From NCBI GenBank assembly GCA_024640085.1, contig JAHEFR010000025.1, forward strand, positions 1 to 36,967: 36,967 nucleotides of DNA, in the 5' to 3' direction. Of the stretch, positions 14,729 through 21,379 are shown piece by piece. The notes under the pieces were generated by a model, which saw only the letters and a list, made by a program, of their open reading frames with translations, was not told the DNA's origin and did not search any database. The translations under genes were made by a program, and so were the position numbers. Each line of letters opens with the position of its first letter. Within the stretch, counting starts at the first letter, position 1. The DNA is from Gammaproteobacteria bacterium (lineage in GTDB: Bacteria; Pseudomonadota; Gammaproteobacteria; Steroidobacterales; XN24).

Positions 14729-15877
14729 ATGTTCGAACTAATGGATTCGTTCAGCCAGCACGCGGTGATAAAGGTCCTGGGCGTCGGCGGGGGCGGCGGT
14801 AATGCCGTTGCCCACATGCTGGCGTCAGGCATCGAGGGCGTGGACTTTATCTGCGCCAATACTGACTCGCAGGCGCTGAAGAAGACGTCCGTGAAGACGT
14901 CATTGCAGATCGGCTGCAATATCACCAAGGGCCTGGGCGCCGGGGCCAATCCCGAGGTCGGGAGACAGGCGGCGATGGAGGACCGAGATCGCATACAAGA
15001 GGTGATCGAGGGCACGGACATGCTCTTTATCACCGCCGGTATGGGCGGCGGTACGGGCACGGGTGCGGCACCAGTAGTCGCCCAGGTGGCGCGAGAGCTG
15101 GGAATACTGACGGTGGCCGTGGTCACCAAGCCCTTCGATATGGAGGGGCCGAAGCGACTGTCCATCGCTGATCAGGGCATCGGTGATCTGGCCAAGTACG
15201 TGGATTCGCTGATCACGATCCCCAATCAGAAGTTGTTGACCGTGCTCGGTCCTGAGACCACGCTCCTCGATGCGTTCAGCGCTGCCAATCAGGTACTGCA
15301 GGGCGCCGTCCAGGGCATCGCAGAGCTGATCACGCGTCCGGGGCTTATCAACGTCGACTTCGCCGACGTCAGGACGGTGATGTCCGAGATGGGCATGGCG
15401 ATGATGGGGACGGGCGAGGCCTCGGGCGAGGATCGGGCCACGGCGGCCGCAGAGGCGGCGGTGTCCAGTCCGCTACTGGACGACATCGACCTCTCTGGCG
15501 CCCATGGCGTGCTTGTCAACGTCACCGCGGGCATGGACCTCTCGATCGGAGAGTTCGACACCGTGGGCATGATCGTGAAGGAGTTTGCCAGTGACGATGC
15601 AACCGTTGTTGTCGGCACAGTGATCGATCCCGAGCTGAACGGGCGTATGCGGGTCACTGTCGTGGCCACGGGGCTCGGACGGTCCGCGGCGATCAGGCAG
15701 CAGCCGGAAGTTCGCGTCGTCCGACCGGCTGCACGGACGGCAGCGCCGGACTGGGACAGGCTGGATCAGCCTGCCGTACGTCGGAAACGGGCCGTGGGCG
15801 ATGACTTCTCTGCGAACCAGGGCGCCCAGGAAGAGCTCCTGGATATCCCGGCTTTCCTGAGGAGGCAGGCTGACTGA
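14729..15877 (+). CDS. ftsZ: Cell division protein FtsZ
   Basis: Tubulin-like GTPase of 382 residues that forms the Z-ring. The tubulin signature GGGTGTG lies at 106-112. The N-terminal GVGGGGGNAVAHM and the synergy-loop region around NVDFADVRTVM are intact. A variable linker (about 318-360) leads to the conserved C-terminal peptide EELLDIPAFLRRQ, which binds FtsA and ZipA-type partners. ATG 14729 follows a strong AGAGGGGAGAG ribosome site. No obvious hairpin terminator follows, so read-through towards lpxC is possible. Confidence 0.98.
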   Translation: MFELMDSFSQHAVIKVLGVGGGGGNAVAHMLASGIEGVDFICANTDSQALKKTSVKTSLQIGCNITKGLGAGANPEVGRQAAMEDRDRIQEVIEGTDMLFITAGMGGGTGTGAAPVVAQVARELGILTVAVVTKPFDMEGPKRLSIADQGIGDLAKYVDSLITIPNQKLLTVLGPETTLLDAFSAANQVLQGAVQGIAELITRPGLINVDFADVRTVMSEMGMAMMGTGEASGEDRATAAAEAAVSSPLLDDIDLSGAHGVLVNVTAGMDLSIGEFDTVGMIVKEFASDDATVVVGTVIDPELNGRMRVTVVATGLGRSAAIRQQPEVRVVRPAARTAAPDWDRLDQPAVRRKRAVGDDFSANQGAQEELLDIPAFLRRQAD

Positions 15878-15972: not shown

Positions 15973-16088
15973 CCTGCGCGGGAGGGAAAAGGCCCGGTCG
16001 GATCATCCCGAAAACGACAATGCACCTGCTGCGTCTACGCGCCGTGAGCGACGCGTCAGGTTTCAAGGGAGCATCGGGGCCCACATCC

Positions 16089-16997
16089 ATGGTTAGACAG
16101 CGCACCCTGAAGAACCCCATCCGCGCCACCGGAGTCGGGCTGCATACCGGTGACAAGGTTTTCATGACCTTGCGACCGGCACCGGCCAATTCGGGCATCG
16201 TGTTTCGGAGGACCGATCTGGACCCCGTGGTCACGGTTCAGGCAGACGCCGTCAAGGTCGGTGAGACCATGCTGGGGACCACGCTGGTCGAGCGGGGGGT
16301 CAAGGTGGCCACGGTCGAACACCTGTTGTCCGCGTTCGCCGGACTGGGGATCGACAACGCCTGCGTCGATCTCAGTGCATCCGAAGTACCGATTATGGAT
16401 GGCAGCGCCGCACCCTTCGTGTTCCTGATCCAGTCCGCGGGCATCGAGGAACAATCGGTACCGAAGCGATTCATCCGCATCAGGCGGCCGGTCGAAGTCG
16501 CTGACGGCGATAAATGGGCTCGCTTCTACCCCTTCGACGGCTTCAAGGTGGACTTCGAGATCGAGTTCGATCACCCGGTCTTCAAGCGGCATCTCCGCCA
16601 TGCCTCCATGGACTTCTCGTCCACCTCCTTCCTGCGGGAGGTTTCACGCGCGCGGACATTTGGATTCATGCGGGATCTCGAGACCCTGCGCGGCAGAAAT
16701 CTGATCATGGGCGGCAGCCTGGACAACGCCATCGTGCTCGATGACTACCGGATCCTCAACGAAGACGGTCTCCGGTATGAGAATGAATTCGTCCGGCACA
16801 AGATCCTGGACGCGATCGGCGACCTTTACCTGCTCGGACACAGCCTGATCGGTGGTTTCAGCGGGTTCAAGTCAGGGCATGGCCTGAACAACAGGCTTCT
16901 CAGGGAACTGATCGCCATGACAGATGCCTGGGAGGAAGTTACCTTCACCGACATGGCCGATCTGCCAATCTCTTACGCGGCACCAGCCGCTGCCTGA
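16089..16997 (+). CDS. lpxC: UDP-3-O-acyl-N-acetylglucosamine deacetylase LpxC
   Basis: Zinc-dependent deacetylase of 302 residues that commits UDP-3-O-acyl-GlcNAc to lipid A synthesis in the cytoplasm. Zinc ligands are H78 ([14 protein letters not shown]), H237 and D241 (HKILD). The general-acid histidine is H264 in SGHGLNN. The frame is open for 69 bases upstream, but ATG 16089 gives [21 protein letters not shown], which aligns with the start of the E. coli protein (MIKQRTLK...). The Shine-Dalgarno before this ATG is weak. The gene is convergent with the dciA-like gene, only 7 bases apart. Confidence 0.97.
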
Positions 16998-17004
16998 GCG
17001 GGAC

Positions 17005-17358
17005 TCAGATCGGTGGTCTTACCCGGACCGAGACCCGGCTGACTTCGATCTCCTGGGCCTCGGAGAGCACCTGCCTGATGGCCCGGGCCTCGAACCGGAC
17101 CCCCGCCGTCCAGGCGGCGCCATCCACGATGACGACAAGCCTGTCGTCCCTCAGATTCGCGCCAACGATGTGTCTGGCGACCTCCGATGGGAGCGCCGAC
17201 TGGACGCACCGCGCCAGTCGATCTGTCGCGGCCGCGCGCTCGACGATGCCCGAGAGCCCACCCCTGCCAGCGAGGAGGTCCTTTAATAGCTCGGGTTTTC
17301 CTGACGGCATGGGCGGAGTGTGATTTGAGCCCTTGAGTCGACGCGGCAAATTGGGCAT
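17005..17358 (-). CDS. dciA: DUF721 / DciA-like protein (putative replicative helicase loader)
   Basis: Small protein of about 117 residues containing the DUF721 fold: LLKDLLAGRGGLSGIVERA, LPSEVARHIVGANLRDDRLVVIVDGAAWTAGVRFEARAIRQVL. DciA proteins of this family load or recruit the DnaB helicase in bacteria lacking DnaC, and the gene is typically found beside lpxC and secA in many gammaproteobacteria. The start is uncertain: ATG at 17358 (MPNLPRRLKG) or ATG at 17310 (MPSGKPELL). Neither has a good Shine-Dalgarno. If 17358 is used, the start overlaps the -10 of the opposite-strand promoter for the M23 gene. Confidence 0.8.
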   Translation of the reverse strand: MPNLPRRLKGSNHTPPMPSGKPELLKDLLAGRGGLSGIVERAAATDRLARCVQSALPSEVARHIVGANLRDDRLVVIVDGAAWTAGVRFEARAIRQVLSEAQEIEVSRVSVRVRPPI

Positions 17359-17361
17359 ATT
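17333..17361 (+). promoter_or_regulatory. Candidate sigma-70 promoter for the riboswitch-M23 transcript
   Basis: TTGAGT (17333-17338), a 17-base spacer and CATATT (17356-17361) sit so that transcription would begin near 17367, directly at the 5' edge of the GEMM aptamer. The -35 is identical to that of the lpxC candidate. The site overlaps the possible dciA start on the other strand. Confidence 0.45.
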
Positions 17362-17366
17362 GTGCC

Positions 17367-17455
17367 GCACTGATAAAGGCAAAGCCACCGAAAGGCGGCG
17401 ACGCAAAGCCTCCGGTCTACGGGTCTACTACCTACGATAGCGGGGTTGCCAGACG
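17367..17455 (+). promoter_or_regulatory. Class I cyclic-di-GMP riboswitch (GEMM motif)
   Basis: The RNA contains the conserved GEMM-I blocks in order. GGCAAAGCC starts at 17378, a GAAA-tetraloop hairpin follows (GCCACC-GAAA-GGCGGC, 17383-17398, with one A-C mismatch), then GACGCAAAGCCTCCGG (17400-17415), a variable hairpin with CTA/TAG pairing (17416-17440), and the 3' block TAGCGGGGTTGCC (17438-17450). These match the Vibrio Vc2 aptamer core closely. The nucleotide that separates c-di-GMP (G) from cGAMP (A) sensors appears to be G, aligned just before GCAAA. It precedes the M23 peptidase gene by about 140 bases, so that gene is the likely target. Ligand and on/off direction are inferred, not shown. 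Confidence 0.88.
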
Positions 17456-17492
17456 TGAAAGAAGAGCGAAACAAATCTTTCCCTTCATTCCG

Positions 17493-17504
17493 GGAGGGGA
17501 GTTG
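17493..17504 (+). promoter_or_regulatory. Strong Shine-Dalgarno with in-frame TTG start (alternative M23 start)
   Basis: GGAGG at 17493-17497 stands 4 bases before TTG 17502, which is in frame with the M23 peptidase gene and has no stop in between. It is a much better ribosome site than the one before ATG 17592. Use of this TTG would add 30 residues to the N-terminus. It is the only strong Shine-Dalgarno in the leader, and it lies downstream of the aptamer, where a riboswitch could control it. Confidence 0.4.
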
Positions 17505-17555
17505 GGGCAGCCGGCTGCGGCAAACAATCGCATTGGTATCCTGCGTATTGCGGGA

Positions 17556-17573
17556 GCCGCGCGTTCCCGCGGC
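17556..17573 (+). promoter_or_regulatory. Leader hairpin before the M23 gene (possible expression platform)
   Basis: GCCGCG (17556-17561) pairs perfectly with CGCGGC (17568-17573) around a 6-base loop, ending 18 bases before ATG 17592. There is no following U-run, so it is not a standard terminator. It could alternatively pair with other GC-rich leader segments and so affect ribosome access. The role is inferred. Confidence 0.35.
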
Positions 17574-17591
17574 CGACGCGGAATTGAAGTC

Positions 17592-18500
17592 ATGAATCTG
17601 ATCATCTACTCGCGCCGGCGAGGAGACGCCCGGCAGATCGGTCTGTTGCGGCCCGGGCCCGTGGCAGCGTTCGTTACCGGCTTGTCGCTGATATTTTCCG
17701 CCGGCTACCTGGTGGGCCAGTCTGGAGAGGGGCCCGAAGGGTCCGGCATGGTCGATGACTTGCGCGCGCAACTGGAGGCGCACCGTGAACAGGTGGTGTC
17801 CACAGAACGGCAGGCGCAGCAGGACGTCGATGCGCTGACCGCCCGGGTCGGCCAGCTCAACGCTCATGTCCTTCGTCTCGATGCCCTCGGTCGGCGACTG
17901 GTGACCATGGCGGGTCTGGACGACGGCGAATTCAATTTTGACGAACCGCCTGCCCGCGGCGGACCGGATTCCGAAGACACGGTGTTGACGCCGGAGACCG
18001 TGGAAGTGGGCGACATGCTTGACGATCTCGCCTTGCAGGTCGAGGACCGGTCTGACCAGCTTGCTGTACTGGAGCGGCTGCTCACCAGCCGACGGGTCAG
18101 CGAGGAGCAGCGGCCGCAGGGGAGGCCGATCTCCTCGGGTTGGCTGTCGTCCTATTTCGGCAAGCGAACGGATCCTTTCACGGGCAAGCAGAGTTTCCAT
18201 GGCGGCATCGACTTCGCCGGCAACGAGGGCTCGGAAGTCCTGGCCGTCGCTTCGGGCGTCGTAACCTGGTCCGGCAAGCGGCACAGCTACGGGACGATGG
18301 TGGAGATCAGCCACGGCAGCGGACTGGTTACGCGCTATGCGCACAACAAGGCCAACCTGGTCGAGGTGGGCGAAACCGTCAAAAAAGGACAGGTCATCGC
18401 CAGGATGGGGCGCTCGGGGCGCGCCACCGGCCCCCATGTCCACTTTGAGGTGCTCAAGGACGATCGAAAGGTCAATCCCCTGAAGTACGTCCAGCGCTGA
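17592..18500 (+). CDS. M23 family metallopeptidase (LytM-type peptidoglycan endopeptidase)
   Basis: Membrane-anchored periplasmic protein of 302 residues. A short basic N-terminus (MNLIIYSRRRGDARQ) is followed by a transmembrane helix at about 24-44, a predicted coiled coil (about 54-105 and 135-165), and a C-terminal LytM domain. Zinc ligands are H203 and D207 in HGGIDFA and H284 in GPHVHFE, with H282 as the second catalytic histidine, so it should be an active cell-wall endopeptidase rather than an EnvC-type degenerate activator. ATG 17592 resembles homologue starts as I remember them, but TTG 17502 has the better ribosome site. It lies where E. coli has secM. A GEMM riboswitch in the leader points to control by cyclic-di-GMP. 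Confidence 0.92.
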   Translation: MNLIIYSRRRGDARQIGLLRPGPVAAFVTGLSLIFSAGYLVGQSGEGPEGSGMVDDLRAQLEAHREQVVSTERQAQQDVDALTARVGQLNAHVLRLDALGRRLVTMAGLDDGEFNFDEPPARGGPDSEDTVLTPETVEVGDMLDDLALQVEDRSDQLAVLERLLTSRRVSEEQRPQGRPISSGWLSSYFGKRTDPFTGKQSFHGGIDFAGNEGSEVLAVASGVVTWSGKRHSYGTMVEISHGSGLVTRYAHNKANLVEVGETVKKGQVIARMGRSGRATGPHVHFEVLKDDRKVNPLKYVQR

Positions 18501-18637
18501 ACTTCCCCCACTCGCACGGGTCGGAGGTTCCGTGTAGACCCCAATGGTCGTAAAATGTCCGGCTTTGCCGGGCACCGGCCGCGGAGTCTGTCTGACGCCG
18601 CCCCAGAACGATGCCGCGCGCGCCAGAAGGAGCGTAA

Positions 18638-21379
<2,742 letters not shown>

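Follow-up and report, generated by a model that had tools for sequence, protein, structure and literature searches.

Several described systems share features with the locus analysed here, and they are summarised below from excerpts of the cited papers. The riboswitch Vc1, which lies before gbpA in Vibrio cholerae, belongs to class I and mediates positive control by c-di-GMP (PMC4744006). It resembles our case in that both leaders are gammaproteobacterial and carry a class I aptamer, but its target is a chitin-binding attachment factor, whereas the target here is a cell-wall enzyme. In Geobacter, pilM is under GEMM-I control (PMC9262584). An M23 endopeptidase linked to c-di-GMP, similar to what we propose below, is described from Erwinia amylovora, where the transcript of the M23 DD-endopeptidase EagA goes up with c-di-GMP and the protein acts in aggregation (PMC7705223). 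EagA differs in being a MepM/ShyB homologue with a LysM domain that is encoded in a znu cluster under Zur, and both riboswitch mentions in that paper concern C. difficile pili and a reference, not EagA (PMC7705223). We found no report of a riboswitch paired with an M23 gene in the open-licence part of PMC; subscription journals or Rfam-based lists may hold one. As judged from sequence comparison, the riboswitch belongs to a known class, and its pairing with this gene is new and conserved.

The window, which is the whole stretch of DNA that was analysed, comprises 36,967 nucleotides. In a cmscan search of the whole window, the sole match that reached the gathering score of its family was to RF01051 (c-di-GMP-I), at 17368..17453 on the + strand (78.9 bits, gathering score 35, E = 4.4e-14), and it spans the full model (positions 1-87). 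An earlier note on this DNA had placed a GEMM-I aptamer at 17367-17455; these bounds are correct to within 2 nt of the match, and all core elements that it named are present in the sequence. The covariance-model score had been set beforehand as a possible refutation, and it is far over the threshold. The match in the M23 leader is not due to chance. The aptamer consists of a P2 hairpin (17384..17399, +) capped by a GAAA tetraloop at 17390-17393, which is of the GNRA type expected for the class, and a P3 domain that includes a terminal hairpin (17407..17447, +), as defined by the RF01051 alignment and covariation. At the place of the P1 closing helix, the complementarity of the flanks is short, with a mean pairing z of −0.55 over 59 leaders and +0.5 in the window.

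The P2 and P3 helices are kept in 61 orthologous aptamers, a set that includes two degenerate copies, and they covary. When the Rfam structure was imposed on the 61 sequences, 92.7% of the cells were paired, compared with 84.5% after shuffling, and 122 cells were changed on both sides, compared with 46.0 (sd 5.6). The covariation score was 0.310 against 0.173 for the shuffled sequences. None of 500 shuffles reached any of these three values. Two-sided changes occurred at 12 of the 22 pairs, a number reached by 37 of 500 shuffles, and at all 6 pairs of P2. As a control, the structure was slid along the sequences, and the paired cells dropped to 34-44%. The aptamer is thus kept in relatives with compensatory changes, and the conservation check that had been proposed along with the aptamer came out in its favour.

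We drew 117 genomes of the window's order, 106 of which had a match to the M23 protein, and inspected the best match in 90 of these 106, leaving out 16 weaker matches. The loci were scanned with a covariance model built from 38 aptamers (R1). In 61 of the 90 genomes, the orthologous M23 gene is preceded by an aptamer, always on the sense strand of that gene and at a distance of 40-269 nt from its start codon. Rfam's own models match 10 of the 12 order loci tested. All of the 61 except two score at least 54 bits with R1. The two exceptions are degenerate copies at the same place (G111, L160:612-697, 30.1 bits; G009, L128:2524-2604, 22.5 bits), both under Rfam's threshold, which we read from their sequences as riboswitch loss in progress. 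Four more R1 matches of 11.5-14.3 bits elsewhere in the loci were excluded. By family, the aptamer is found in f1 (7/7), f2 (5/5), f3 (1/1), f4 (4/4), f8 (1/1), f10 (5/5), f7 (14/15), f15 (11/12), f6 (6/11) and f11 (7/14), and in no genome of f5 (0/3), f9 (0/2), f12 (0/2), f14 (0/3) or f16 (0/5). All seven genomes of the window's own family have it at the M23 gene. The 29 of 90 genomes in which R1 detected no aptamer at M23 include two loci with short upstream sequence (126 nt in L137 and 267 nt in L190) and three that may be paralogues (L202-L204). The f5, f9 and f16 genomes without the aptamer at M23 have RF01051 matches elsewhere; therefore, the absence is particular to the M23 locus.

Among the best 80 named loci of M23 relatives in public genomes, seven gave strong R1 matches (69-93 bits). 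The other 73, including loci of Dyella, Rhodanobacter, Luteibacter, Moraxellaceae and Zooshikella, had none of that strength; six weak matches among the 80 (13.5-20.5 bits) were taken as noise, and two of the 80 loci (L074 and L112) have less than 100 nt upstream. R1 is partly circular for this set, because the window and six of the seven strong loci were in its training set and L035, the remaining one, covers the same contig region as G002, which was also used for training. The independent result is that of Rfam's own models, which gave the same seven strong matches among the 18 named loci tested. The named and order sets overlap (L035 = G002, L036 = G089, L042 = G108). L036 comes from Woeseia sp. 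OFTM247, and family f7 thus includes Woeseiaceae.

The genes around the aptamer are arranged in the order ftsZ (14729-15877), lpxC (16020-16997), a dciA-like gene on the reverse strand (17005..17310, −; PF05258, 40.4 bits), the M23 gene (17592..18500, +) and secA (18638..21379, +; SecA domains, e.g. PF07517, 426.3 bits). Pfam thereby confirms the position given earlier for the M23 gene, between lpxC and secA with ftsZ nearby; the interval also holds the DciA-like gene, which had gone unmentioned. Because the riboswitch lies between two divergent genes, its RNA would run only into M23. The distance from the aptamer to the M23 ATG is 138 nt, and the aptamer occupies a sense-strand 5′ leader, as expected for the class. 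M23 relatives align from residue 1 at ATG 17592. An in-frame TTG at 17502 would extend the protein by 30 residues (17502-17591); by eye, an extension of equal length is in frame in G002, and it is out of frame in G001. For the latter reason, we prefer ATG 17592 as the start.

The gene encodes a family M23 cell-wall endopeptidase of 302 aa (PF01551, 112.5 bits; M23 chains in the PDB match with E values down to 8.8e-21). By eye, a hydrophobic stretch at the N-terminus precedes the C-terminal M23 domain, and the protein seems to be anchored in the membrane by an N-terminal helix. The enzyme had been called catalytically intact, and the PF01551 score together with the presence of His203, Asp207, His251, His282 and His284 bears this out for the window. 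All 30 order orthologues that were aligned also have His203, Asp207, His251 and His284. The position of His282 (the first His of the HxH motif; codon at 18435) is His in the window and eight others and Asn in 21 of the 30 orthologues, and the description as catalytically intact applies, on this alignment, to the window protein, many orthologues differing at this position. The roles of the individual zinc and catalytic residues are assigned as in LytM-type enzymes. In Pseudomonas aeruginosa, we take the M23 gene PA4404 to adjoin secA as well. PA4404 is a predicted cross-link endopeptidase that is degraded by LbcA-CtpA (PMC6050968, PMC12569750). The two proteins may be likened as M23 enzymes, and they differ in that PA4404 is a predicted outer-membrane lipoprotein. 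The excerpts of these two papers do not mention c-di-GMP or secA, and those of one of them do not mention lpxC.

Upstream of the aptamer, the conserved sequences point to a closely spaced promoter of the riboswitch's own. A −35-like element, TTGAGT (17333..17338, +), and a −10-like element, CATATT (17356..17361, +), are separated by a spacer of 17 nt in the window. In 47 of the 61 loci, CATANT precedes the aptamer by 3-9 nt (mean 0.46 and maximum 4 in 200 shuffles), and in 43 of the 61 it has TTG 16-18 nt upstream (mean 0.04 and maximum 1 in 200 shuffles). The predicted transcription start is approximately the first aptamer base. The leader promoter was not flagged by a generic promoter scan with stricter hexamers. 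We also considered the CAT of the −10 element as a conserved start of the divergent gene and rejected this, as most loci have only a short reverse frame. In many f7 loci (for example, L133, L134 and L145), an inverted repeat, GTGAC-N5-GTCAC, was seen by eye a few tens of bases upstream of the −35 element; it is a possible transcription-factor site and was not seen in the window.

The junctions of the window aptamer were compared with those of the cGAMP riboswitch, a GEMM-Ib RNA. A14 of that riboswitch is presumably the residue called position 20 in Vc2 numbering. In the cGAMP riboswitch, A14 is the last J1/2 base before P2, J2/3 is formed by A41, and J1/3 contains C75 (PMC6274999). An A-to-G change at position 20 turned a cGAMP riboswitch from Geobacter into one for c-di-GMP (PMC6456294). 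In the window, the last nucleotide of J1/2 before P2 is G17378 (Rfam column 11; junction numbering as in PMC6274999), which agrees with the earlier reading of the specificity base as G, the c-di-GMP type. By homology to A41, the J2/3 adenine A17405 (A in 61 of 61 aptamers) would stack with the ligand as in the class, and by homology to C75, the J1/3 cytosine C17449 (C in 60 of 61) is the expected partner of one ligand guanine. The window therefore has all three ligand-contact positions of RF01051 in addition to the GAAA-capped P2.

The GEMM-Ib cGAMP riboswitches of Geobacter have the same fold but carry A at the specificity base, where the window has G. This base is G in 53, A in seven and C in one of the 61 orthologous aptamers. 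Six of the seven A-type aptamers are well formed, and the other is the degenerate G009. Five of them comprise all five members of genus g13 (G015, G028, G040, G051 and G060), and the remaining two are G109 and G009. The well-formed A-type M23 leaders are L118, L119, L121, L122 and L125 (g13) and L171. The five g13 genomes have 30 RF01051 matches that are not at M23, and all 10 of those sampled have G. One other RF01051 place each in G109 and G105 also has G.

The segment from the aptamer to the start codon (17454..17591, +) is the candidate expression platform, and it was examined by terminator scans, a Shine-Dalgarno check and folding tests. No intrinsic-terminator-like site was found on the + strand in 16900-18700; the two such sites in this range are both on the − strand, inside the aptamer. 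Intrinsic termination in the window leader was rejected on this ground. A looser scan marked nine of 61 leaders, two of these only within the coding region, and did not mark that of the window. A listed Shine-Dalgarno tetramer is present in 45 of the 61 leaders, and none is found at −20 to −4 of the M23 start codon in the window. A general pairing of the aptamer 3′ strand with the start region was rejected (mean z +0.14, n = 59; 0.043 against 0.040 when shuffled). In G007 and G022, a long helix joins the aptamer 3′ strand to the start codon region. A consensus fold of the G000, G002 and G001 leaders recovered the aptamer helices; in that fold, the 5′ flank also pairs with a CCGGC located downstream, in a helix that has one compensatory change, which is too little to claim.

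When the aptamer fold was enforced, the start region of the window opened by +0.14 (from 0.40 to 0.54) in the folding calculation. Within the window's family, the shifts were +0.21 in the congener G002, +0.14 in G005, approximately zero in G001 and G004, −0.02 in G006 and −0.10 in G003. The mean opening over 59 leaders was +0.027 (sem 0.010), compared with +0.004 (0.003) when the downstream parts were mononucleotide-shuffled. Because no platform is shared among the leaders, we treat the direction of switching as a lean and not as a result. The folding calculations incline us slightly to an ON switch over an OFF switch, and faintly to one that acts on translation. An OFF switch, in which c-di-GMP would shut M23, so that motile, fast-growing cells would make the endopeptidase and sessile cells would limit it, is a less probable but serious contender. 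The class I switches of C. difficile are OFF switches in the excerpts of PMC6200980, and enforcing the aptamer closes the start region by more than 0.05 in six of the 59 leaders, including that of G003 from the same family. However, 14 of the 59 open by more than 0.05, the mean goes to open, as do the window and G002, and the aptamer fold would free the start region from the long helix in G007 and G022. Vc1, moreover, works positively.

It can also be asked whether the main target of the riboswitch is secA, or M23 and secA as one unit, which would tie c-di-GMP to protein export. The two genes are adjacent on one strand with a gap of 137 nt, and no conserved promoter lies closer upstream of M23 than that of the aptamer. 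Within the gap, on the other hand, the window has TAAAAT at 18551..18556 (+), which is probably the −10 element of a promoter that serves secA separately; it is found in six of the eight distinct loci read, with TAGAAT in one and nothing of the kind within 220 nt in one. Because secA has an apparent promoter of its own, from which it is probably expressed separately, it is probably outside riboswitch control, and a translational switch would, polarity aside, affect M23 alone; we consider control of secA improbable. Sensing of another cyclic dinucleotide, cGAMP, at the M23 locus would fit the A that seven orthologous aptamers, five of which belong to one genus, carry at the specificity position, but the G in the window and in 53 of 61 orthologues makes it very improbable, as does the fact that the A-to-G change converted a cGAMP riboswitch to c-di-GMP (PMC6456294). 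Least credible of all is a relic aptamer that has no regulatory function. Copies in decay do exist at two order loci (G111 and G009), but the window copy scores 78.9 bits with every contact position in place, and the aptamer persists across several families, where its helices show compensatory changes and its promoter stays at a fixed spacing.

We therefore hold with considerable confidence that the 5′ leader of the M23 gene is a genuine class I c-di-GMP riboswitch that would act as follows. The most solid parts of this reading are the family membership, the conservation, the promoter and the G at the specificity base. Transcription from the dedicated promoter would start at about the first aptamer base, and c-di-GMP made by the GGDEF proteins of the cell would bind in the three-way junction through the conserved G, A and C contacts. 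Binding would stabilise P1-P2-P3, and folding of the aptamer would alter the ease with which the M23 start region is translated. If the switch is of the ON type, to which we lean, high c-di-GMP would raise the endopeptidase in parallel with further targets of such riboswitches, among them pilM and exported proteins. In sessile cells, the endopeptidase would perhaps then open the wall for structures that span the envelope. About two thirds of the related genomes examined carry this aptamer ahead of the M23 gene, which suggests a direct tie between c-di-GMP and the opening of the wall in this group. If so, peptidoglycan cutting would be coupled to the motile-sessile signal by an RNA, with no protein regulator between them. 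We regard as possible, but doubtful, a wider scheme of an order-wide circuit from c-di-GMP through RNA to the endopeptidase that, together with the pilM riboswitch, loosens the wall for the pilus machinery, and in which the M23 leader of one genus, having gone from G to A while the other sampled riboswitches kept G, may respond to a different cyclic dinucleotide. The association can be tested by comparison, as it concerns one syntenic gene in many families and includes a natural G-to-A change at the specificity base. The orthologous leaders form a dated set that shares one aptamer and varies in expression platform, and they also lend themselves to the study of how switches are rewired.

In several loci, a conserved stretch precedes secA; at 18551-18580 of the window it reads CGTAAAAT, followed by a GGCTTTGCC-like stretch. 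The genome to which the window belongs has nine RF01051 matches over the cut-off, the one at M23 included, as well as 10 GGDEF and six EAL matches. One of the other eight is weak (44.4 bits). Another (L002:1501-1585) lies upstream of pilM (gene from 1876; PF11104, 424.7 bits), so that this genome, like Geobacter, has a GEMM-I aptamer before pilM. Most of the other downstream frames that were read appear by eye to encode exported proteins, some with lipoprotein-like starts, and these frames have no Pfam match over threshold. Two of the eight are tandem aptamers on contig C5 (L001:1052-1135 and L004:1280-1365), 144 nt apart and before a lipoprotein-like gene. Pairs of aptamers with similar spacing on one contig also occur in G002, G003, G004, G005, G006 and other genomes.
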